From a virus: a DNA stretch of 24,714 nucleotides. Position 1 is the stretch's first letter, and each line of letters begins with the position of its first letter. Positions 256 through 24,714 of this stretch are shown one piece after another. The translations under genes were made by a program, and so were the position numbers. The notes under the pieces are model-generated. The model worked only from the letters and a program-made list of their open reading frames with translations. It was not told the DNA's origin and made no database searches. The stretch spans positions 1 through 24,714 of the IMG/VR virus record IMGVR_UViG_3300044957_000705; one strand, given 5' to 3'.

Positions 256-294
256 TGACGAGTGTCCCTGATGGTGTCACCTGATGGGAACACT

Positions 295-1569
295 ATGAAA
301 TCCGCTGATTCTACCATTGCTGTTTCTCCCCCGTCGTCTGCTGCTGATTCGAAGTCGTTTTGGGCGGCGCGGAAGGTGCGCCAGATCCGAGGGGTGACGT
401 GCTCGTTTTATAAGCGCTACGGGGCGTTTCTTTACATGGATTTCAAGGTGAAGAGGTGCCGCGTGAAGGAATCAACGAGTTGCACGACGCTGGATGATGC
501 GGCGCGTGTGGCGGAGCGGCGCATCCAGGCGATGCAGGAGGCGGGCAACGGGCTGGCGGAGATGAGGGCCTTTTCGGCTCGACAGCGGGCGGCGGTGGCG
601 ACGGTGGCGGAGGTGCTGGCCTGTCTGGATGGTGGAGACAAGGTGATGACGGATAACAGTCTGCGGACCTACAAGAGCGCTCTGCTGAGGCTGGCACGGG
701 TGGCGGCGGACGATGCGGAGGCGGCGCGGCTGGATGTGGTGCTTTGCAAGGAGAATTTGGAGCGCTTTTATGCGCAGGGGCAGGGCCGCGAGGGCAAGGG
801 GGTGAACTGGGTGAACCGGCTGCCGTGCAATGGCGGGCTGAATTCGACGATTCGGAATGCGCGGGCGCTTTTTAAACCGAAGATGCTGGAGCTGAAGTTT
901 GCGGCTTTGAAGCTGCCGCCGCTGGATGATCTGAAGCGGCTGCCAAAGCTGCCGCAGCAGCGCGGGGGGTTTGTGCCGTGGCCGGCGGGTGTGTATGAGC
1001 GGATGGTGGCAGCAGCGGAGGGGCTGCGGGAGTCGGAGCCTGATTTGTGGCTGGTGAATGCGATGCAGCGCTTTTTGGGGCTGCGTAATTGCGAGCTGCT
1101 GGCGGCGCGGCGGGAGTGGATCACGATGGGCGAGGACGGCCGGGCCTGGCTGAACATTGATGACCACCGCGGTGATGACCTGGAGGATGATGAGGAGAGT
1201 GATTTCGAGGTGGCGAAGCATGGCCGCGCCCGGAGGCTGGAGCTGAATGCGGTGCTGAAAAGTGTGCTGCTGGAGCGGACGGGCTGGCTGGTGGCACCGG
1301 AGCTGGCGAGCGATGAGCGGACGGTTTGTGAGGATGCGCGGCATGCGCTGATTTACCGGCGGCATAGCGAGTGGCTGAGGCAGTTTATCCCGGACCGGCG
1401 GAAGAGCTGCCACGAGCTGCGCATGTATGCGGGGAGCCTGGTGGCACGCGATCACGGGCTGGAGGCGGCGTGTTATTTCCTGGGCCACACGACGATTGTG
1501 ACGACGCAGGCGTTTTACTGGGCGTGGATGAAGGAGAGCCCGATGCTGGGAGCGAAGGCGCTGGCGTGA
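295..1569 (+). CDS. int: Tyrosine recombinase / phage integrase
   Basis: This is a site-specific recombinase expected to integrate and excise the element at the adjacent tRNA-Leu core. Counted from ATG 295 (424 residues), the full catalytic set is visible: Arg264 in GLRNCE, a lysine in the following VAKHGR hairpin, His373 and Arg376 in HELR, His398 in LGH, and nucleophile Tyr408 in QAFY. Residues of about 25-90 look like a basic arm-binding region and about 100-230 like a helical core-binding domain. The length is normal for phage integrases. An in-frame GTG at 262 would add 11 residues; I prefer 295 because neither start has a clear ribosome site and 295 is an ATG. The gene converges on a leftward operon across a short repeat array. 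Confidence 0.93.
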   Translation: MKSADSTIAVSPPSSAADSKSFWAARKVRQIRGVTCSFYKRYGAFLYMDFKVKRCRVKESTSCTTLDDAARVAERRIQAMQEAGNGLAEMRAFSARQRAAVATVAEVLACLDGGDKVMTDNSLRTYKSALLRLARVAADDAEAARLDVVLCKENLERFYAQGQGREGKGVNWVNRLPCNGGLNSTIRNARALFKPKMLELKFAALKLPPLDDLKRLPKLPQQRGGFVPWPAGVYERMVAAAEGLRESEPDLWLVNAMQRFLGLRNCELLAARREWITMGEDGRAWLNIDDHRGDDLEDDEESDFEVAKHGRARRLELNAVLKSVLLERTGWLVAPELASDERTVCEDARHALIYRRHSEWLRQFIPDRRKSCHELRMYAGSLVARDHGLEAACYFLGHTTIVTTQAFYWAWMKESPMLGAKALA

Positions 1570-3465: not shown

Positions 3466-3882
3466 CTATGGCCTCCATCCGGCTTTGCGGGTGATGGCGG
3501 CGAAGATGTGATCTAGCTCGTCATCAGCGGCGAGTTTTTGCGCCCAGAAGCGGAGCATGCTTTGCTGCTCGATCGTGAGGCCGAGGGTGAAGGTGGTGAC
3601 GGCTTCGTTGAGGCGGTTGCTGGTGGGCTCCAAGACGCGTTCCTGGACGCTCTGGGGCAGCACGTCCTGGAGCCAGGCGGCGAGGAGATCGCGCTGCTCT
3701 GGTGCGTCGAGGCAGGGCAGGTAGGCGGCGAGGTGGTCATCGCGGATGGGGCGATTGCCGGTGATGTGATGCGAGACCGTGGGGATTGCGATGGATGCAG
3801 CCTTGGCGAGATCGCTCTGTGTCCAGTTGTGCATCATGAGGCAATTGGAGAGCATTTTGGCTGCTTTTGGGGTGGTTTCCAT
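3466..3882 (-). CDS. Cro/CI-like HTH repressor
   Basis: A 138-residue protein with an N-terminal XRE-type helix-turn-helix at about residues 19-46 (NWTQSDLAKAASIAIPTVSH), followed by a helical C-terminal region with no visible LexA-like protease motifs. It is transcribed leftward and divergently from the first rightward gene, the usual place of a lysogeny repressor. A 17-base palindrome overlaps its own start codon (3879-3895), which suggests autoregulation. The C-terminal half probably serves for dimerisation. I infer it is the master repressor of the rightward early promoter. It could instead be a Cro-like or antirepressor-regulated protein. Confidence 0.82.
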   Translation of the reverse strand: METTPKAAKMLSNCLMMHNWTQSDLAKAASIAIPTVSHHITGNRPIRDDHLAAYLPCLDAPEQRDLLAAWLQDVLPQSVQERVLEPTSNRLNEAVTTFTLGLTIEQQSMLRFWAQKLAADDELDHIFAAITRKAGWRP

Positions 3883-8846: not shown

Positions 8847-10237
8847 AATACGAAAACTTTTTGGATGCAAAGCGTCATTTGAGCGGAGACGCGGGCTTTG
8901 AGCCTGTGTTTTTACCAGATCGCCTGTTTCCGTTTCAACGTGCCCTGGTGGAGTGGGCTGTGCGCAAGGGGCGGGCGGCGTTGTTTGAGGACTGCGGACT
9001 GGGAAAGACGTTTCAGCAGCTTGTGTGGGGGCAAAACGTGGTGATGAAGGTGAACCGGCCAGTTTTGTTTTTGACGCCGCTGTCCGTGGGTTTTCAGACG
9101 GTGGAGGAGGCGAGGAAATTCGGCCTGTCCGCCGTGATGAGCCGCGATGGCAGGGTGAAGGGTGATCTGGTGGTGACAAACTACCAGCAGCTGCATAAGT
9201 TTGACTGGCAGGATTTCGGCGGGGTGGTGTGCGATGAGTCGAGCATCTTGAAAAGTTTCGACGGGCAGATCAAAGCTCAGGTCACGCTGTTCATGCGGAA
9301 GATTCCCTTCCGGCTGCTCTGCACGGCGACGGCCGCCCCGAATGATTTCATCGAGATAGGGACATCAAGCGAGGCGCTTGGCGAGCTGGGTTTCATGGAT
9401 GTGGTGAACCGTTTTTTCAAACAAGACAACGGTGTGAAGTTTGCGGCAACAGACCGGCGACGTTCGGACGGGCGGGCAGATGTGGGATGTTTTGGGAAAT
9501 ATCGTTTTCGCGGCCATGCGGAGCCGATGTTCTGGCGGTGGGTGTGCTCGTGGGCGCGCGCGGTGCGGAAGCCTTCGGACATGGGATTTTCAGACGATGG
9601 ATATGATCTCCCGAATTTGATCCTGCGCGAGCATGTGGTGAGCGCGATGATGAAACGTGATGATTTTCTATTTGAGATGCCCGCACATGGTTTGCAGGAG
9701 CAGCGTGAGGAACGCCGCCGGACGATCCGCGAGCGATGCGAGACGGCTGCCGCCCTGCATGTGGCGCATCCGGGCGCGGGCGTGGCGTGGTGCCATCTGA
9801 ATGACGAGGGGAAAATGTTGGCGGAGATGATTCCTGGCGCGGTGGAAGTGTGCGGCGACGACAGTGACGAGGCGAAGGAGGAGAAGTTCGCGGCGTTCGC
9901 GACGGGGGAATTTAAAAAGCTGGTGACGAAGCCGGTGATCGCGGGATTCGGGCTGAACTGGCAGCATTGCGCTCATCAGACGACGTTTCCGAGCCATAGC
10001 TACGAGCAGTTTTACCAGAGTGTGAGGAGGAGCTACCGCTTTGGACAGAAAAGTGATGTGGTGGTGGATGTGGTGGCAAGCGAGGGCGAGGCCGGGGTGC
10101 TGGCGAACCTGAACCGCAAGGCGGAGCAATCGCAGCGAATGTTTCAGCGGCTGGTGGAGCTGATGAACGATGAATTGAAAATACGCCGCGTGGAGCGGCA
10201 CAACCAAAGAACAGAATTACCAACATGGCTATCATAA
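8843..10237 (+). CDS. SNF2-like superfamily 2 helicase
   Basis: A 464-residue ATP-dependent DNA translocase or helicase. Visible motifs are Walker A GLGKT (52-56), Walker B DESS (131-134), motif III-like TATAAP and motif VI QSVRRSYRFGQ (392-402), the SNF2-type arginine-finger segment. The length matches compact phage SNF2-like helicases. It could remodel protein-DNA complexes or restart forks. Start 8843 is fixed by AGGAGGTG at 8830-8837 and an ATGA overlap with the DUF1376 gene. It overlaps the methyltransferase gene by 13 bases; such helicase-methyltransferase pairs recur in phage replication modules. Confidence 0.9.
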   Translation: MKYENFLDAKRHLSGDAGFEPVFLPDRLFPFQRALVEWAVRKGRAALFEDCGLGKTFQQLVWGQNVVMKVNRPVLFLTPLSVGFQTVEEARKFGLSAVMSRDGRVKGDLVVTNYQQLHKFDWQDFGGVVCDESSILKSFDGQIKAQVTLFMRKIPFRLLCTATAAPNDFIEIGTSSEALGELGFMDVVNRFFKQDNGVKFAATDRRRSDGRADVGCFGKYRFRGHAEPMFWRWVCSWARAVRKPSDMGFSDDGYDLPNLILREHVVSAMMKRDDFLFEMPAHGLQEQREERRRTIRERCETAAALHVAHPGAGVAWCHLNDEGKMLAEMIPGAVEVCGDDSDEAKEEKFAAFATGEFKKLVTKPVIAGFGLNWQHCAHQTTFPSHSYEQFYQSVRRSYRFGQKSDVVVDVVASEGEAGVLANLNRKAEQSQRMFQRLVELMNDELKIRRVERHNQRTELPTWLS

Positions 10238-11208
10238 ATCAAAGCATTCAAGAGATGTTCGCGCTGTATCACGGCGACTGTGCGGAGGTGATGCGCGACA
10301 TGCCTGACGCGAGCGTGGATCTTTCGATCTACTCGCCGCCGTTTTGCGGCCTTTACCAGTATTCGAGTGACGAGCGTGATCTGAGCAACTGTGAGAACTA
10401 TCAGGAGTTTTTCGAGCATTACAGCTACATCGTCGAGGAAGTGGCCCGGCTGACCAAGCCGGGACGCATCACGGCCGTGCATTGCATGGATGTCCCTGGC
10501 ACCGGGAACGGGATGACGGCGAAGATGGGCTGCGGCGCGAACGCCGGGACAGGAGTGATTGATTTTCCTGGTGACATCATCCGCCTGCATGAGATGCACG
10601 GGTTTCAATTCATGGGGAGACGGGCGATCTGGAAGGAGCCGCTGGGGGTGAGGCTGCGGACAATGGCGAAAGGTCTGGCTCATGCGCAGATCGTGGCGGA
10701 TTCGACATTGTGCGATGTGGCAGGCGCGGACTATCTCTTGTGGTTTCGCAAGGCTGGCGAGAACGCGGTGCCCGTGGCGCATCCGCACGGACTGCTGAGT
10801 TATGCCGGGGAACGGGTGATGCCTGCGGATTTGCAAGCCTATCGTGGATGGAAGGGGAAGCAGACAGAGAATCGTTACTCGCACTGGATATGGCGGCAGT
10901 ATGCGAGCTGCTTTTGGGATGACATTCGCATTGATCGAGTGCTGCCCTATGAGGCGAGCCGGGAGGTGGACGATGAGCGGCATGTGCATCCGCTGCAACT
11001 GGATGTGATCGAGCGAGCATGTGTGCTTTGGAGCAATCCGGGCGACGTGGTGCTGACGCCGTTCATGGGGGTGGGGAGCGAGGTGTATGGCGCGGTGATC
11101 AATGGCCGTCGCGGAGTGGGCATCGAGCTCAAAGATGCCTACTACAAGCAGGCTGTGCTGAACGTGCAGGCCGCGGCGGAGCATCGGAATCAGGATTTTT
11201 TACTTTGA
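10225..11208 (+). CDS. DNA N4-cytosine/N6-adenine methyltransferase
   Basis: A 327-residue amino-methyltransferase. The catalytic motif IV is SPPF (37-40), more often seen in N4-cytosine enzymes, and the S-adenosylmethionine-binding motif I appears later as FMGVGS (280-285), which gives the beta-class order. The region between would hold the target-recognition domain. No restriction endonuclease is visible beside it, so it is probably an orphan used for self-protection or regulation of replication or packaging. An internal ATG at 10255 gives a start typical of this family (MFALYHGDC), so the first ten residues are uncertain. Confidence 0.9.
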   Translation: MAIINQSIQEMFALYHGDCAEVMRDMPDASVDLSIYSPPFCGLYQYSSDERDLSNCENYQEFFEHYSYIVEEVARLTKPGRITAVHCMDVPGTGNGMTAKMGCGANAGTGVIDFPGDIIRLHEMHGFQFMGRRAIWKEPLGVRLRTMAKGLAHAQIVADSTLCDVAGADYLLWFRKAGENAVPVAHPHGLLSYAGERVMPADLQAYRGWKGKQTENRYSHWIWRQYASCFWDDIRIDRVLPYEASREVDDERHVHPLQLDVIERACVLWSNPGDVVLTPFMGVGSEVYGAVINGRRGVGIELKDAYYKQAVLNVQAAAEHRNQDFLL

Positions 11209-13176: not shown

Positions 13177-13201
13177 AGCCATGAACACCCAAGGTCAGGC
13201 G

Positions 13202-13216
13202 CGGCCCGAAGGGCCG
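13202..13216. other. Small hairpin between SSB-like and Dam genes
   Basis: CGGCCC and GGGCCG flank GAA. There is no T run after it on either strand, so it is more likely an RNA processing or regulatory hairpin than a terminator. A 21-codon frame (13181-13246, starting MNTQGQARPEG) crosses it, with no other support. Confidence 0.35.
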
Positions 13217-13250
13217 TTGCCTGAACCGCCTTGTTCGCCTTCTTGATTTT

Positions 13251-13646
13251 ATGGCCGACTTCGACACCAGATTCAAAAGCAACACCGTAGAATGGGCTAC
13301 GCCGCCCGAGGTGTATGACCCGCTCAACCGTGAGTTCGGGTTCACGCTCGATGTGGCGGCAACGCCCGAGAATGCCAAGTGTCCGCGCTACTACACCCGC
13401 GAAGATGACGGGCTGGCGCAACCGTGGGACGGTGTGTGCTGGATGAATCCACCCTACGGGAAAGATGTCCCGAAGTGGCTCGCCCGTGCGTTGGATGAGA
13501 GCAAGCGCGGGGTGACAACCGTGTGTCTGATTCCGGCTCGAACGAATACCAAGTGGTTCCATGACTTGTGCCTGTCCGTGGCGGAAGTCCGCTTCGTGAA
13601 GGGACGCCCTAAGTTTGGGGACGCCGATCATGGTCTGCCTCTGTGA
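13251..13646 (+). CDS. Phage-type DNA N6-adenine methyltransferase (Dam family)
   Basis: A 131-residue protein of the phage DNA N-6-adenine methyltransferase family. It shows WATPPEVYDPLNREFGF, then TLDVAATPENAKC, the catalytic NPPY (66-69) and the LIPARTNTKWFH segment. It transfers methyl from S-adenosylmethionine to adenine in DNA. The end FVKGRPKFGDADHGLPL stops early; family members usually continue about ten residues in a hydrophobic strand. The loss is small and activity may remain. The start follows TGATTTT, without a ribosome site. Confidence 0.88.
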   Translation: MADFDTRFKSNTVEWATPPEVYDPLNREFGFTLDVAATPENAKCPRYYTREDDGLAQPWDGVCWMNPPYGKDVPKWLARALDESKRGVTTVCLIPARTNTKWFHDLCLSVAEVRFVKGRPKFGDADHGLPL

Positions 13647-13673: not shown

Positions 13674-13913
13674 ATGAAACTCGATGAAATGCTGGAACAA
13701 GTGCGCGTGACCTGCCGCATGCGTCGGTTGTCGCGACACACGGAAAACACGTATGCTGGCTGGATCGCTCGCGTTGCCCGGCATGTGAGGATGTGTGGGC
13801 AGCTTTCACGCGAGGAGCGGGTGAGGAGTTACCTGGAGAAACTGGCTCCGAGGTGCGCGGCATCGACTCAAAATCAGGCGTTTGAGATGGAAACGGGAAG
13901 GAGGGCGGCGTGA
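13674..13913 (+). CDS. Truncated integron-integrase-like core-binding domain
   Basis: A 79-residue protein resembling only the N-terminal SAM-like core-binding domain of integron-type tyrosine recombinases. It has LEQVRVTCRMRRLSRHTENT, then YAGWIARVARHVR and the family signature STQNQAF at about 64-70, where the sequence leaves the family and ends EMETGRRAA. The catalytic domain is absent. It could be a decayed gene or a stand-alone DNA-binding domain. Its last codons contain the ribosome site of the terminase gene and the stop overlaps the terminase GTG, so its translation may set terminase expression. Confidence 0.72.
   Translation: MKLDEMLEQVRVTCRMRRLSRHTENTYAGWIARVARHVRMCGQLSREERVRSYLEKLAPRCAASTQNQAFEMETGRRAA
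13898..13904 (+). promoter_or_regulatory. Shine-Dalgarno AAGGAGG deciding the terminase GTG start
   Basis: It lies five bases before GTG 13910 and fourteen before the alternative ATG 13919, so GTG is the better start. It is embedded in the coding sequence of the integrase fragment. Confidence 0.65.
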
Positions 13914-16015
13914 TCTGGATGCGTGACATCACTGCGCGTTATCCGCGGGCGCTGGAGGCGCATTCGCGCATCGCGCCGCTGGATGCGGAGAGGGTGGAGG
14001 CGTTGATCGCGGCGGAGGATGCGGCGGGGCTGGAGACGCTGGCGCAGTCGCGGGTGCGGGAACTGTGGCTGGACGATCAGTTTGTGAAGGCGGGCACAGA
14101 GCGGGCGCTGGAGCCGCATCCACGCCTGGCGCTGCTGCCGCTGGAAGTGATGTGGAGCATGGCGCAATCGCCGGAGCGCGTGGCGAAGTTGCTGGCGTGG
14201 GGCGCGTCGCGGCATGAGGAGATCGAGCTGGAGGCGGGCGACCGCTACCGCTACGGCTGGCGCGGCGATCCGGGGCGCAGTCGCGAACTGGGCGGAGGCT
14301 GGAAGCGGGCGGTGGAGGCGATCGCGGCCGTGAAGAAGGCGAATCCGCGCTCGATTCCGAAGATCCTCTGCATGGGTGGCAATGGTTCATCGAAGTCGGA
14401 GTTTGCGGCGTGGTATGCGATGAAGCTGATGGTGGAAAAGCCGCGTGCGCAGGTGGCGGTGCTGTGTCCCTCGCAAACGCAGGCGCGGAAGGTGCTGATG
14501 GAGCGTTTGTTTGACAATCTGCCGGCGGAGTGGCGGCCGGCGGAGACGGGCAAGGCGAAAAGCGGCATCACGGGGAACATTTCCTACACGCGGAAGATGG
14601 GCTTCACGGAGAATATGTTTCTGCTGCCGAATGGGAGCCGGTGCACGTTTTACTTCTACCTGGAGGGCGACCCCAAAAGCATCGAGGGCGACCAGCTCGA
14701 CCTGGTGATCGCGGATGAAGAGGTGCCGGCGGAGTGGCTGGAGGCCTGCGAGTTCCGACTGGCGCGAACGGCGGGCACGCTGATGGCGATGTTCACGCCG
14801 ATCAGCGGCTACATCCCGGCGGTGACGTGGTTTCGCGGCGGGGCGCGAGTCATCGAGCAGCGCGAGGCTCCGCTGCTGAAGAACGTGGTGAGCGTGCAGC
14901 GCGACGAACGCGGTGAGCTGAAAGAGACGCGCTTTGAGATGGCGGCCTGGCATGAGAGTCCGCCGGGAACGATCCGCGAGGAGCCGGTGATGATGCCGCT
15001 GCTGGAATACGGCGCCGATCCGACGAAGCGCGTGATTTATTTCTGGACGCAGGATTGCTGCTATCCGGCGTTTGGTTACGAGACGCTATCCGAGCTGCTG
15101 CGCAGCAAGCGGGCCACGGTGGCGATGGTGAAGACGCGGGCCTATGGCTGGCCTTCCAAGGTGCGTGATGCACGCTTTCCGATTCTGGATGAGAAGGTGC
15201 ATGCGATCGCGCCCGCGGCAGCGAGGGCCGGGGAGATTCCGAAGGATGCGACGTGGTATATGTTCCTCGATCCGGCGGAGGGTCGTAACCACGTCATGCA
15301 GTGGTATGCGAAGACGCGGGACGGGCGGGAAATCCTGGCGCGGGAATGGCCGCAGCAGGATGACTTCATTCCGGGCTTTGGCCTGGTGGGGCCGTGGGCG
15401 GTGGATGCCACGCGCGGCAAGGCGCTGGATGGCGTGCCTGGACCGGCGCAGCAGCCGATGAACCTGACGCCTGCGCAGTATGTGGCGGAGATGGATCGCG
15501 TGGAGGCGGAGCTGGGGAAGGATTACACGCACGAAGGCCAGCCGATCCACGTCACGCGCCGCATCATGGACTCGCGCGGCGGGGACAAGATGGTGGCGGG
15601 GCGCAGTTACTTCACGGAATTTGCGGCGCTGAAGAATGCCGCCGGACGGCATTGCGTGTTTGAGGATGCGAGCGGCAAGGAACTGAACCCGCGCAGCAGC
15701 AATCCGGACGCGGTGTGTGGTGTGAGCCTCATTGACGGCGCGCTGGGCTACGACACGCAAAAGCCGGTGGGACCGAGCAATCATCCGCGCCTGATGGTGG
15801 TGTATGCGCCGCCGGATGTGGACGCGGGCGAGGAGGTGCCGCACGGCTGCGCGAACTCCTGGGACAGCCTGAAGCACTGGACGGGTGCCGATGGTCTCAA
15901 AGGAGCGCGGAAAGATTTCATTGACCTGTTCCACTACGCGCAGCGCGAGGAGATGGAGTGGGAGGATACCACGCCGAGGCCGCTGACAGGCATGACTTTT
16001 GGAACCAAACTATGA
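13910..16015 (+). CDS. terL: Terminase large subunit
   Basis: A 701-residue DNA-packaging motor. The ATPase has Walker A GGNGSSKS (156-163), Walker B DLVIADEE (Asp269, Glu270, Glu271) and the coupling segment MFTPISG. The nuclease domain has Asp454 in YMFLDPAEG, Asp554 in DSRGGDKM and an acidic C-terminal helix (KDFIDLFHYA). Walker A sits about 100 residues later than in many terminases, so there is an N-terminal helical extension of unknown role. No certain small subunit adjoins; the HTH genes at 5067 or 16012 are candidates. The GTG start is coupled to the previous gene and the stop to the next (ATGA). Confidence 0.9.
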   Translation: MIWMRDITARYPRALEAHSRIAPLDAERVEALIAAEDAAGLETLAQSRVRELWLDDQFVKAGTERALEPHPRLALLPLEVMWSMAQSPERVAKLLAWGASRHEEIELEAGDRYRYGWRGDPGRSRELGGGWKRAVEAIAAVKKANPRSIPKILCMGGNGSSKSEFAAWYAMKLMVEKPRAQVAVLCPSQTQARKVLMERLFDNLPAEWRPAETGKAKSGITGNISYTRKMGFTENMFLLPNGSRCTFYFYLEGDPKSIEGDQLDLVIADEEVPAEWLEACEFRLARTAGTLMAMFTPISGYIPAVTWFRGGARVIEQREAPLLKNVVSVQRDERGELKETRFEMAAWHESPPGTIREEPVMMPLLEYGADPTKRVIYFWTQDCCYPAFGYETLSELLRSKRATVAMVKTRAYGWPSKVRDARFPILDEKVHAIAPAAARAGEIPKDATWYMFLDPAEGRNHVMQWYAKTRDGREILAREWPQQDDFIPGFGLVGPWAVDATRGKALDGVPGPAQQPMNLTPAQYVAEMDRVEAELGKDYTHEGQPIHVTRRIMDSRGGDKMVAGRSYFTEFAALKNAAGRHCVFEDASGKELNPRSSNPDAVCGVSLIDGALGYDTQKPVGPSNHPRLMVVYAPPDVDAGEEVPHGCANSWDSLKHWTGADGLKGARKDFIDLFHYAQREEMEWEDTTPRPLTGMTFGTKL

Positions 16016-20564: not shown

Positions 20565-21590
20565 ATGAGCGCAGCCTCTACCACTGACACATCTGCCACC
20601 CATACCGAACGCCAAGTGCTTTCGGGCTTTCAGACCCTCATCGCGATGAAGACTCCTCTTCGCGCGAAGATCAAAACCGGCCCCAAGCCGCTGACGACGA
20701 CTCCTGAATGGGAGTGCCGCACCTACCACGACCCGAGCACCTCTGGCTACATCGAGGGCCAGATTCCCGCCGTGGCGGACGCCCAGAACAACCTCGACAC
20801 GAAGACCATGCTGAAGGGGCGCTTCATCAAGCAGCTCCGCCATGTGGCGGTGACGAAGGAAATGAAGCTGATGGGCAACCAATACAACGAGAACGATCCG
20901 CTCGGCGCGAACATCAAGCAGGCGACGGAAGAGCTTTACGTGGACGTGGAGGCTACCATCGCCTCTGATGATGAGGCGGTGGTTCCTGCCTCCGGCACCA
21001 CGGCGAGCGAGACACGCTCCCTCTTCCGCTGGCTCTCGAATGCGGACGCCCGCATGACGGAGACGACCACCCGCCCCACTGCCGCCTACCGCACGCCTGC
21101 CGCGCACATCGTGGTGAGCAAGGCCACCGCGGCGGACATCACGGAGGTGGATGTGCGCGGCCTCATCACCCAGGTGGCGAAGAGCCGCAAGGATGACGGT
21201 CTGCGTTTCCTCGGTGTATGCACGCCTGAGATGCGGGATCGCTTTGACGACTTCAGCCGCACGGGCACCGGGGAGACCACGGACACGCGGGAGGACCAGA
21301 TGGTGTATCGCTTTGCGCAGCAGCAGGGCACGGTGAACCGTGAGATCACGCTCTACAAGTCCAGCAATGGCCGCATCGAGCTGATGACCTGCCACCGCCT
21401 GCACAGCACGGTGCACTTTGGCCTGCTGACTCCGGACCACCTGGAGCTGGGCTATGCGCAGGGCGTGATGGTGAACCCGGAGTCGAGTCCTTCGGCTCAG
21501 GTGAACCACCGTGAGATCGACGTGATCTACGTGCTGATGCCGCGCTGCCTGAACAGCCACGGCAAGATCATCACGGGCGCGACGGCCTGA
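20565..21590 (+). CDS. Major capsid protein, SU10-like (DUF5309-type)
   Basis: A 341-residue HK97-fold capsid protein by family resemblance. Characteristic parts are KTGPKPLTTTPEWE (37-50), the following region with GYIEGQ, RFIKQLRHVAVTKEMKLMG (86-104) and KQATEELYVDVEATI (118-132), which match the layout of SU10-like or DUF5309 capsids. It comes directly after the scaffold candidate. The region 20516-20564 before it holds no hairpin; the start follows CTATTTT rather than a ribosome site. High expression is expected, though I see no clear own promoter. Confidence 0.82.
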   Translation: MSAASTTDTSATHTERQVLSGFQTLIAMKTPLRAKIKTGPKPLTTTPEWECRTYHDPSTSGYIEGQIPAVADAQNNLDTKTMLKGRFIKQLRHVAVTKEMKLMGNQYNENDPLGANIKQATEELYVDVEATIASDDEAVVPASGTTASETRSLFRWLSNADARMTETTTRPTAAYRTPAAHIVVSKATAADITEVDVRGLITQVAKSRKDDGLRFLGVCTPEMRDRFDDFSRTGTGETTDTREDQMVYRFAQQQGTVNREITLYKSSNGRIELMTCHRLHSTVHFGLLTPDHLELGYAQGVMVNPESSPSAQVNHREIDVIYVLMPRCLNSHGKIITGATA

Positions 21591-21630: not shown

Positions 21631-22077
21631 ATGCTCTTCGAGACCACCCACGGCCCTGCGGATGTCATCAATGCCTACACCGAGCTCTTCGGTGACGGGC
21701 GGGTGATGGACGCGATGCGGCGGCTGCTGACGAAGGAAGAGAAGGAGCAGGAGCAGAGGGAGCGCCGCGAAATCCGCCGTCTGGCCTGGAAGGTGAAGCG
21801 GCATAAAATCCGCCGCTATTTCATGGGAGACCTGGGCATCGTGCCGGAGTGCGAGGTGCCGGATTTCCATTATCACCGCTATGCCGGGGCCTTTGAGATG
21901 AAGGCGCGGGAGTGCGGCATGGAACTGCCACAGAAGGGCTATGAGTGCTGGCAGGATGAGGACTTTCTGGCGTGGTATCGGCGGAAATACCCGGAGCTGT
22001 TCTATGACGAGGCTCCGCGCAACGCCCGCATTTTGGTGAACGAACACGGCCACCTGCCGCTGGTGGCTGCTGCCTGA
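21631..22077 (+). CDS. Unknown 148-residue protein after the capsid gene
   Basis: The protein starts MLFETTHGPADVINAYTELF, followed by a strongly charged helix (about 30-60, KEEKEQEQRERREIRRLAWK). The second half is aromatic-rich (YHRYAGAFEMKARECG and WYRRKYPELFYDE). No family is recognised. Its place between capsid and connector-like genes suggests a head-decoration, head-completion or regulatory role. Confidence 0.65.
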   Translation: MLFETTHGPADVINAYTELFGDGRVMDAMRRLLTKEEKEQEQRERREIRRLAWKVKRHKIRRYFMGDLGIVPECEVPDFHYHRYAGAFEMKARECGMELPQKGYECWQDEDFLAWYRRKYPELFYDEAPRNARILVNEHGHLPLVAAA

Positions 22078-22082
22078 CGATC

Positions 22083-22766
22083 ATGCGCACACCCCTGCCA
22101 TTCCGCACCGTGTTTGAGACCGCCTGCCTGGTGGCCTCCGGGGTGGTGCCTGCGACGGGCGGCGAGGCGGAGAGGCTGGCGCTGATCGACTTCAACCGTA
22201 GCTACGCCGTGGGCTATGGGGAGGGTGGCGCGGATGGCTGGACGGATGCCCGCACGGGCGCGACGGTGACGCCGGTGGACCGGCTGATCTCGTTCGCGAG
22301 CATCGGGGACGGGCGTTTGTTTGAGGTCTTCGATGCCGATCCACGCGGGAATGACAACGCGGTGGAACTGGCTTTCACGGAGAATCAAGCTGGCATCCTG
22401 CTGAATGAGGCGGCTTCGACGGTGTGGATGACGTGGGTGCCGGAGACGGTGAAGTTCAGCAATGCGAGCTGGCTGACGGCCACGACCTACGCGGTGGGGG
22501 ATGCGCGGGTGAACCCCGCCACGGGCCACTGCTACCGCTGCCTCACGGCGCACACAAGCGGCACCTTTGCCACGGATTTAGCAGCGAACAAGTGGCTGCT
22601 GATCCCGGTCCTGGCGGTGCTCGAGGAGTTCCTCTACGCGCATGTCCAAGGATGCCACCTGCTGCGCACCGGGCAGGAGCAGACTGGCTTTGGCATGCAG
22701 CAAAAGGCCATCGATGCCCTCGCGGTGGTGGCAGGCAAAGAGATCAAAAACCGACTTCAAACCTAA
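22083..22766 (+). CDS. Connector/neck-like protein with chitin-binding-like module
   Basis: A 227-residue protein. Residues of about 125-175 contain TYAVGD, GHCYRCLTAHTSGTF and a trailing Trp, the pattern of CBM5/12-like (chitin-binding type 3) modules. The flanking parts (1-120 and 176-227, the latter with EEFLYAHVQGCHLLRTGQEQ) appear to be one domain interrupted by the module. Gene order suggests a head-completion, neck or short-tail adaptor protein. The module may be displayed on the virion and bind surface glycans. I cannot name the base domain. Confidence 0.62.
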   Translation: MRTPLPFRTVFETACLVASGVVPATGGEAERLALIDFNRSYAVGYGEGGADGWTDARTGATVTPVDRLISFASIGDGRLFEVFDADPRGNDNAVELAFTENQAGILLNEAASTVWMTWVPETVKFSNASWLTATTYAVGDARVNPATGHCYRCLTAHTSGTFATDLAANKWLLIPVLAVLEEFLYAHVQGCHLLRTGQEQTGFGMQQKAIDALAVVAGKEIKNRLQT

Positions 22767-22772
22767 CTTTTT

Positions 22773-23036
22773 ATGCCAAAGCTCACTGTAACCACCTCCC
22801 CCACGCCTGTGCCTGAAAAGGTCGGGCGCAAGCAGCTCTTTGTCCGCGCCTATGGCGATGTGCGTTTCGCTTGGCGCAGTGATGTGACGTTTTCCACGGC
22901 AGGCACGCAGGGCGTGCTGCTGAAGGAGGCGGACGGCATCATGGCGCTCGGCGGCCGGGAGCTGGATTTGAGCGCGGAGCTTTATTTCATCGCGGGATCG
23001 GGAACCGTTGACCTGGAATGGGAGGAAAAGGCATGA
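22773..23036 (+). CDS. Unknown 87-residue beta-rich virion protein
   Basis: A small protein (MPKLTVTTSPTPVPEKVGRK start) with alternating strands, ending SGTVDLEWEEKA. The composition and place before the tail spike suggest a small structural adaptor or decoration protein. No family is recognised. Its start follows AACTTTTT; its stop overlaps the spike start (ATGA). Confidence 0.65.
   Translation: MPKLTVTTSPTPVPEKVGRKQLFVRAYGDVRFAWRSDVTFSTAGTQGVLLKEADGIMALGGRELDLSAELYFIAGSGTVDLEWEEKA
23021..23025 (+). promoter_or_regulatory. Shine-Dalgarno GGAGG for the tail spike gene
   Basis: It lies seven bases before ATG 23033, favouring that start over the in-frame ATG at 23018, which would precede the ribosome site. 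Confidence 0.6.
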
Positions 23037-24448
23037 GCGCGATCGCGTTTTCCAAGCCTTCCAGCGGCGGCAGTTTCGGCGACCTTGGCGGATCGCCGGG
23101 GGATAATGCCGCGCTGGCGGCGGCGTTGGCGCTTAAGTTTGACAGTTCTTCCGTTCCAATTTTAAACGGCGTGAATGTCATGCAATACGGCGCTACGGGA
23201 ACCGCCCGAAAAGTGACGGATGGCGTCATTAACGGCACAACAACATTCACCAGCGCCACGGCGGCCTTTACTGCGGCGGACGTTGGAAAAAGCATTTGGG
23301 GCGTGGAGGTGGCAACCGGGCTGGCGAGGCTGCCGGTGCGAACAATTACAAGCGTGACCAATTCCACCACGGTTGTATTTAGCGGCACATCATCAGGCAT
23401 TGGTTCTTATTCAGGTTTGCAAGTGGTGATCGGAACGGATGACAGCACGGCGATTTTGAACGCCTTCACTGCTGCTTTTGCGACCACGCCAGCTAAATCG
23501 CTGCATCTTCCTGCCGGGGGCTATGTTATTAGCGAACGACTTTTTAACATGGCTGGCGGCAGCGGTATTAAGGGCTGCATGATTTTTGGCGATGGCAGTC
23601 GTAGCACGTTCCTCTATCCGTCTCCCTCGTTCAATGTGGCGGGCGTCTCTGCGGGGCAGGGGCTTATCGCTCATTTGGATGGAGCCACGAAGCACGGCGG
23701 GTTGAGCGGGATGACCATCGACGGCAGCTACTACAACTTTGCCGCAACCGGGAATTACGTTCTCTGCGACCTTGGCGCGGCCAATCTTTACCAAGACGTG
23801 AAACTCCAATTCTTCAAGGGGGTGAACACGGGACTGCTGTGCAGTGGCAGTTTCACCCTGCTGAAGGGCTGCAGTTTCGAGGGCTTTAATTACAACGCGC
23901 TTTCAATCGTCGAGGGGCATACTCATGCTCAAGATTGTTACTGTGGGAACGCGGGCAACTACAGCCTCTACATCGCCTCCATTGCCGGAGAATCGAACGG
24001 AGGCGCTCGCGTGACATGGGTGGGTGGGACTGTCGATGAATCAACGTCCGGCGGTCTGGATGTAAACACCGCAAGCACGGATATTGTTTTCCTCGGTGCC
24101 ATCTTGTTTGGCCCACCGGGCCAGTATGCGGCGCGAATCGGCAATGCCTGCAAGGTCCGCTTCATTGGCTGTCAAATTGTCCCGTTTGGTACGGGTAATC
24201 GCGGTGGCCTCAAAGTGCTATCTGGCGGCACGGCATGGCTTGTGGGCTGCCGTGTGGCAGGCAGCGGCACATTGTATGCAATGGATAACGCCGGAACGGT
24301 TTATGATGGCGGCGGTAATGTGATCGGGTCCATTACGGGCAGTAATTCGCTGACTTGGATGGATTATGACCGTCTGCCCACAAGCGATCCTGTCAACAAG
24401 GGCGTGCTTTGGCGCTCGGGTACAGCCCTTCAAATTTCAGCAGGTTAA
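23033..24448 (+). CDS. Tail spike with pectate-lyase-like beta-helix
   Basis: A 471-residue receptor-binding protein. After a Gly/Ser-rich virion-attachment region (about 1-45), a conserved block leads into the right-handed beta-helix: GVNVMQYGATG at about 46-56, then DDSTAILNAFTAA and KSLHLPAGGYVIS. Many short Gly/Asn-rich coils follow to about 430. The C-terminal LPTSDP...GVLWRSGTALQISAG ending is a tip found in many phage tail proteins. It may bind or cleave host surface polysaccharide; no catalytic residues can be assigned by eye. The DNA is visibly less GC-rich than upstream, which suggests separate acquisition. Confidence 0.85.
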   Translation: MSAIAFSKPSSGGSFGDLGGSPGDNAALAAALALKFDSSSVPILNGVNVMQYGATGTARKVTDGVINGTTTFTSATAAFTAADVGKSIWGVEVATGLARLPVRTITSVTNSTTVVFSGTSSGIGSYSGLQVVIGTDDSTAILNAFTAAFATTPAKSLHLPAGGYVISERLFNMAGGSGIKGCMIFGDGSRSTFLYPSPSFNVAGVSAGQGLIAHLDGATKHGGLSGMTIDGSYYNFAATGNYVLCDLGAANLYQDVKLQFFKGVNTGLLCSGSFTLLKGCSFEGFNYNALSIVEGHTHAQDCYCGNAGNYSLYIASIAGESNGGARVTWVGGTVDESTSGGLDVNTASTDIVFLGAILFGPPGQYAARIGNACKVRFIGCQIVPFGTGNRGGLKVLSGGTAWLVGCRVAGSGTLYAMDNAGTVYDGGGNVIGSITGSNSLTWMDYDRLPTSDPVNKGVLWRSGTALQISAG

Positions 24449-24484
24449 ATATGCTGATGCAAACCACCGCTCCGCAATGAAACA

Positions 24485-24714
24485 ATGCCGTATAATGAAC
24501 TGGATAACCTCGACCCACAATGGCTGCGCTGCCTTTTTGAGAAGGCTCCCGTGCCGTTGGCCGTTGTTGCTCCTAACCATCGTTTCTTGCGATGCAATGA
24601 CGCATATTGCAAGCTCTTGGGCTATGCCAGGGCAGAACTTCTTGCCCGAACCTGGAAGAGCATCACGCACCAAGACGACATTGACGGCTATGCAGCCGGT
24701 GCGGGAGAACTCAA
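24485..24714 (+). CDS. PAS-domain protein, 3' end outside the window
   Basis: The visible 76 codons start MPYNELDNLDPQWLRCLFEK and read APVPLAVVAPNHRFLRCNDA, then YCKLLGYARAELLARTW and ITHQDDIDGY, a good S-box/PAS domain (about residues 16 to the end). PAS domains sense small ligands, light or redox state and usually control kinases, cyclases or transcription. Because the frame runs off the window, the output domain is unknown. It follows the tail spike by 36 bases. It may be a phage gene or the first cargo or host gene after the late region. ATG 24485 gives the PAS frame; ATG 24478 is in a different frame. Confidence 0.78.
   Translation, partial: MPYNELDNLDPQWLRCLFEKAPVPLAVVAPNHRFLRCNDAYCKLLGYARAELLARTWKSITHQDDIDGYAAGAGEL

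Follow-up and report, generated by a model that had tools for sequence, protein, structure and literature searches.

A PAS-domain gene directly behind the receptor-binding gene of two otherwise unlike phages

We observed a PAS domain in a fixed slot behind the receptor-binding gene of two otherwise unlike phages, and found the domain to be complete in one of them, L002. The other phage is the window analysed here, the whole of an IMG/VR virus record of 24,714 bp, where the PAS domain lies at the very end of the contig. This is a real phage PAS gene, most likely encoding a small stand-alone sensor in a late operon, through which the virus may sense the condition of its host. Phage PAS sensors have been little described. 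The finding of a stand-alone PAS protein in the late operon of two unlike phages, next to a receptor-binding module that can be exchanged, suggests that host state is sensed late in infection, and provides a testable idea of how temperate phages choose the time of lysis.

The first 76 codons of the PAS-domain gene are present in the window (24485..24714, + strand), as seen from the ORF list and the profile matches, and the continuation is carried by L002. The ORF (24485..24712) begins with an ATG and has no stop before the contig end. As the window is the whole 24,714-bp record, the ORF is cut by the end of the contig. The first-pass annotation had placed a PAS sensor domain here, immediately after a tail spike, and the profile searches upheld the domain. 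Four Pfam models scored above their curated cut-offs, PAS_8 (E 3.7e-7, 30.3 bits against a cut-off of 21.8), PAS (E 1.4e-6, 28.7 bits against 22.6), PAS_3 (E 7.5e-6) and PAS_4 (E 7.7e-6), while PAS_9 fell under its own; the NCBIfam model TIGR00229 sensory_box matched at E 3e-10. About half of a PAS domain is in the window (PF00989 profile positions 6-55 of 113), and other open frames compete over the same DNA. The immediate adjacency also held, since the PAS ORF starts 36 nt past the stop of the spike ORF (23018-24448). A sigma-70 consensus scan of 22000-24714 (poor evidence outside proteobacteria) showed no promoter-like site upstream of the PAS gene. The short gap, together with the lack of a promoter-like site, fits co-transcription with the spike gene. 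PADLOC, run on P0001 and P0002, returned 0 families, and no known defence system was recognised.

The name 'tail spike' is weaker than the adjacency. The gene (23018..24448, + strand) is a probable, pectate-lyase-like tail-spike gene with a PF12708 match (E 2.6e-4) under the curated cut-off; NCBIfam gave no match for it, and no relatives were found in phage records. Its N-terminal anchor segment (23084..23144, + strand) matches the L002 tail-fibre gene at 85% DNA identity and is similar in three further records (L005, L006 and L011), the anchor motif of the receptor-binding gene being GDNAALAAALALK. The label thus leans on a sub-threshold pectate-lyase match and on an N-terminus that appears tail-anchor-like and is common to other phages.

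L002 (IMGVR_UViG_3300044956_000694, 10,617 bp) was the sole relative obtained from the viral-contig search, with a protein that is 91% identical. Viral contigs were scanned again with a DNA pattern, with the longer protein and with the C-terminal part, and L002 was again the one contig found. Three DNA matches connected the window with L002: 266 bp at 93% (24449-24714), 61 bp at 85% (the N-terminus of the spike) and 46 bp at 83%. When the ORFs were compared one by one (stop-to-stop frames of at least 50 aa, E up to 1e-3), five matches were obtained: a weak antisense match, and four in various frames across the PAS region. The DNA homology starts right behind the spike stop, in the spacer (24449..24484, + strand), which lines up with the final codons of a 61-aa gene present in full in L002 (9811-9996). 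The two spikes are unlike beyond the anchor, whereas the PAS gene is conserved, and the shared flanks of the receptor-binding gene suggest that this module was exchanged long ago.

The last mismatch between the window and L002 is at 24587, and the 127 bases thereafter (24588..24714) are identical up to the contig end. Metagenome assemblers commonly use 127 as their largest k. From these two observations we infer a k-mer break, likely a break in the assembly graph, with the window probably ending at a graph branch common to an L002-like phage. In the window, the PAS gene probably runs on as it does in L002. Circular closure was rejected: blastn did not place the L002 continuation at the start of the window, and the last 15, 20 and 30 bases of the window never recur in it.

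The window carries genes for a terminase large subunit (13910..16015, + strand; phrog_2 E 5.4e-14), a DnaB helicase and an SU10-type major capsid protein (20565..21590, + strand; PF17236 E 5.8e-13); no relative of the capsid protein was found in viral contigs or phage records. A repressor-like gene (3466..3882, - strand; phrog_4583 E 9.7e-5) gives a temperate-lifestyle context, and there are also an excisionase-like gene and a tyrosine-recombinase-like integrase gene (262..1569, + strand). The integrase had a weak profile match (phrog_216 E 0.0046), with what we take, by eye, to be the catalytic-residue pattern. Owing to these three genes the phage looks temperate, which makes readings in terms of the lysis-lysogeny decision or of cargo possible. 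L002 codes for a terminase that differs from that of the window, a portal, other structural genes and a Mom-like protein, and its PAS gene sits behind its own tail-fibre gene. The presence of the gene in this second virus contig, with different terminase and structural genes, supports the earlier proposal that it is phage-borne, and led us to reject the opposing case, in which the right end of the window would be ordinary host chromosome. Since L002 otherwise has almost nothing in common with the window, the PAS gene is phage cargo beside the receptor-binding module.

From this placement we tentatively propose that the PAS gene encodes a small, stand-alone, late-expressed sensor that tunes lysis or the late state of the host. 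The gene would belong to a temperate short-tailed phage and be transcribed with the late genes, flanked by the receptor-binding module on one side and a probable lysis or auxiliary region on the other. On the cytoplasmic side, the PAS domain would bind a small molecule or respond to redox or energy state. The protein would be positioned at the inner membrane, or on a partner protein, by its hydrophobic C-terminal tail, and its signal would tune the timing of lysis late in infection, from the slot that a small, weakly releasin-like membrane protein occupies in related phages.

It is possible, though on the unlikely side, that the protein is instead lysogenic cargo or a decoy of host signalling, which would be produced either in the lysogen or in the course of infection, and would alter host signalling by pairing with the PAS sensors of the host or by buffering their ligand. 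The repressor, excisionase-like and integrase-like genes that mark a temperate phage would suit such a role, as would the location of the gene, since the integrase lies at one end of the window and the other, right end is a usual place for cargo genes. Bacteria also have stand-alone single-PAS proteins. The closest small relative that we saw is of this type, a stand-alone PAS protein of 138 aa from a Deinococcus plasmid (WP_273991031), which has one PAS domain and little else, and aligns at 36% over 131 aa including the Ala/Pro-rich end. However, it lies beside nitrite-reductase genes, without phage context, and shows no hydrophobic tail in the alignment. Typical cargo genes carry their own promoter, whereas the PAS gene follows the spike gene closely and the consensus scan, with its limits outside proteobacteria, pointed to no promoter of its own.

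The wider searches fit the view of the first-pass annotation that PAS domains are uncommon in phages. The 50,697 phage records were searched by tblastn with the L002 protein at E up to 1, and with a second PAS stretch at E up to 0.01, and gave 0 matches to either; in the 72,556 plasmid records the L002 protein matched 177. For PAS, however, tblastn is a blunt tool and profiles would be more sensitive: these queries missed VqmA of vibriophage VP882 even though VP882 is in the collection. A longer PAS-kinase query matched 57 phage records, among the matches listed mostly over the C-terminal part of the query. Among genome contigs, 28 pattern stretches were obtained and 0 were confirmed as PAS relatives. 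The plasmid match with the widest coverage, from Spirosoma, was set aside as an ordinary host PAS protein beside a response regulator.

The PAS protein of L002 was read over 173 aa and is still open at the end of that contig. Its PAS domain is complete and single (residues 17-123, PF00989 positions 6-111 of 113; sensory_box E 5.1e-12), and is followed by a Pro/Ala-rich linker and a hydrophobic tail. Reading the C-terminus by extending the contig had been suggested as a check; L002 completed the domain in this way, but did not reach the stop codon. It had also been assumed that a separate output domain lay outside the window. In L002, the 50 residues read beyond the PAS domain gave no Pfam or NCBIfam match to an output domain, be it a kinase, a cyclase or a DNA-binding domain, and H-box, GGDEF and HTH signatures were not found in them. 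The assumption is so far not supported, although L002 ends before the stop. A 19-residue stretch of the tail, which includes R and D, has a Kyte-Doolittle mean of 1.40, as compared to 1.42 for a stretch within the PAS domain itself; the tail thus appears marginally hydrophobic, and a membrane anchor is possible. An AlphaFold2 model built from the two sequences was of low confidence (mean pLDDT 37.1), too poor to search for related folds. As two sequences exist, and 7 of the 10 codons changed between them alter the amino acid, purifying selection is not demonstrable.

We consider it unlikely that these residues form the N-terminus of a longer, host-derived sensor, in which PAS, linker and membrane segment would be followed by a signalling domain, a kinase or a cyclase. 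The order of the PAS protein does resemble that of the aerotaxis receptor Aer (PAS, linker, hydrophobic segment), and the end of L002 before a stop codon is compatible with a longer protein. The names point the same way: the best full-length NCBIfam names over the PAS stretch are cyclases and kinases, and the plasmid relatives, among the matches listed, were mostly annotated 'PAS domain S-box protein', with one diguanylate cyclase. However, none of the three signatures appears within 50 residues past the PAS domain, and a long host sensor would be improbable in the late operon of two phages.

We also compared the slot behind the receptor-binding gene with that of the three further records, L005 and L006 having been recovered through the anchor segment and L011 through the 79- and 61-aa genes of L002. 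In L002 the receptor-binding gene is followed by the 79-aa gene, the 61-aa gene and the PAS gene, and in L011 by a 99-aa gene, a 60-aa gene and an 88-aa protein. The stretch LIPDKPTLADV is common to the 61-aa protein of L002 and the 60-aa protein of L011 (score 126 vs a shuffled mean of 23.6). In L005 and L006, the receptor-binding gene and a 112-aa or 107-aa gene are followed by a 105-aa protein related to the 88-aa one of L011; the two 105-aa proteins are identical to each other, so that these records are close to one lineage. No PAS match was seen in L005, L006 or L011 (0 of 3 records). Searches of phage records with the DUF2730-like and 60-aa proteins gave no useful relatives, the one match (E 0.04) being in an unrelated gene. 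L012 was rejected as a relative, being a chance pattern match within a longer reading frame of another contig.

The 88-aa protein of L011 is a small membrane protein with a DUF2730 match (E 8e-4) that is under the cut-off and partly coiled-coil. The prototype of DUF2730 is Mu gp25, described in the available text of PMC9239132 as membrane-tethered and required for the release of the Mu endolysin. This role and the weak DUF2730 likeness in the related phages make the slot a candidate lysis slot. The PAS protein resembles Mu gp25 by slot only, in that related phages hold a weakly DUF2730-like small membrane protein there; unlike the PAS protein, Mu gp25 has no PAS domain, and the PAS protein's tail is without similarity to the DUF2730-like proteins, scores against the small membrane proteins of L005, L006 and L011 being no better than shuffles. 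PF10805 (DUF2730) itself did not match the PAS protein at E 1, which leaves it outside the releasins, and no lysis gene was found in the window or read beside the PAS gene. We regard as improbable a lysis timer with a built-in sensor, in which a PAS domain and a membrane-directed tail in a releasin-like slot would tune lysis by a host metabolite, redox or energy state, the sensor moving between phages beside the receptor-binding gene.

A role as an accessory of the tail spike is very doubtful. The protein would be an assembly helper or a virion part, with the PAS fold acting as a dimerisation module only. This would be consistent with the location of the PAS gene directly behind the receptor-binding gene in both phages, and with the DNA homology at both borders of the exchanged spike; however, L005, L006 and L011 have a similar anchor segment and lack a PAS match, and the PAS gene is conserved between phages with spikes that differ beyond the anchor.

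When we searched the literature on PAS domains and phages, VqmA of VP882 was the sole phage PAS sensor found; the main text of a Shewanella prophage paper from the same search makes no mention of a PAS domain. According to the available text of PMC8284805, VqmA is a receptor with a PAS domain and a LuxR-type HTH that launches the lytic programme, and as a phage-encoded PAS sensor of a temperate phage it provides a precedent for PAS sensing in a life-cycle decision. As a control, we confirmed that VqmA matches PAS_4 and GerE (E 7.9e-11, residues 157-212), its HTH starting ~30 residues past the PAS domain. That the PAS protein is likewise a transcription factor, reading a host signal and triggering the lytic programme, is the least probable reading: its sequence is not clearly of the VqmA kind (BLASTP E 0.019 as a single pair, 17% identity over 95 positions, with no full-length similarity), no GerE HTH was seen in the 50 residues past its PAS domain in the L002 protein, cut at residue 173, and its gene lies in the late region behind the spike, away from the repressor.

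Some further features of these contigs were recorded. Just before the integrase-like gene, positions 121-143 of the window resemble a tRNA 3' end (TTCAAGTCC T-arm, by eye) and are a possible attachment site; Aragorn found no whole tRNA in the window. The 46-bp match between the window (13201-13246) and L002 (4072-4114) is GC-rich, with an imperfect inverted repeat by eye, and has the look of a dispersed repeat; it was discarded as a host marker, as one exact pattern gave 0 matches in the genome collection. Three genes past its 88-aa protein, L011 encodes a YaeF-type permuted papain-like enzyme (9212-9763, E 1.2e-5), possibly a cell-wall enzyme, which PHROGs names enoyl-CoA hydratase-like (phrog_1128 E 6.8e-25), perhaps a misnomer. 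Another L011 gene (11560-12648) joins, in one phage protein, a Methyltransf_24 match (E 5.9e-10) with a match to the sialyltransferase family GT29 (E 1.1e-15). The small contig of the window has two DNA methyltransferase genes (10225-11208 and 13251-13646; N6_N4_Mtase and Dam), and the Mom-like DNA modification protein of L002 (1816-2679; PF25680 E 8.8e-69) is encoded between the terminase and portal genes.
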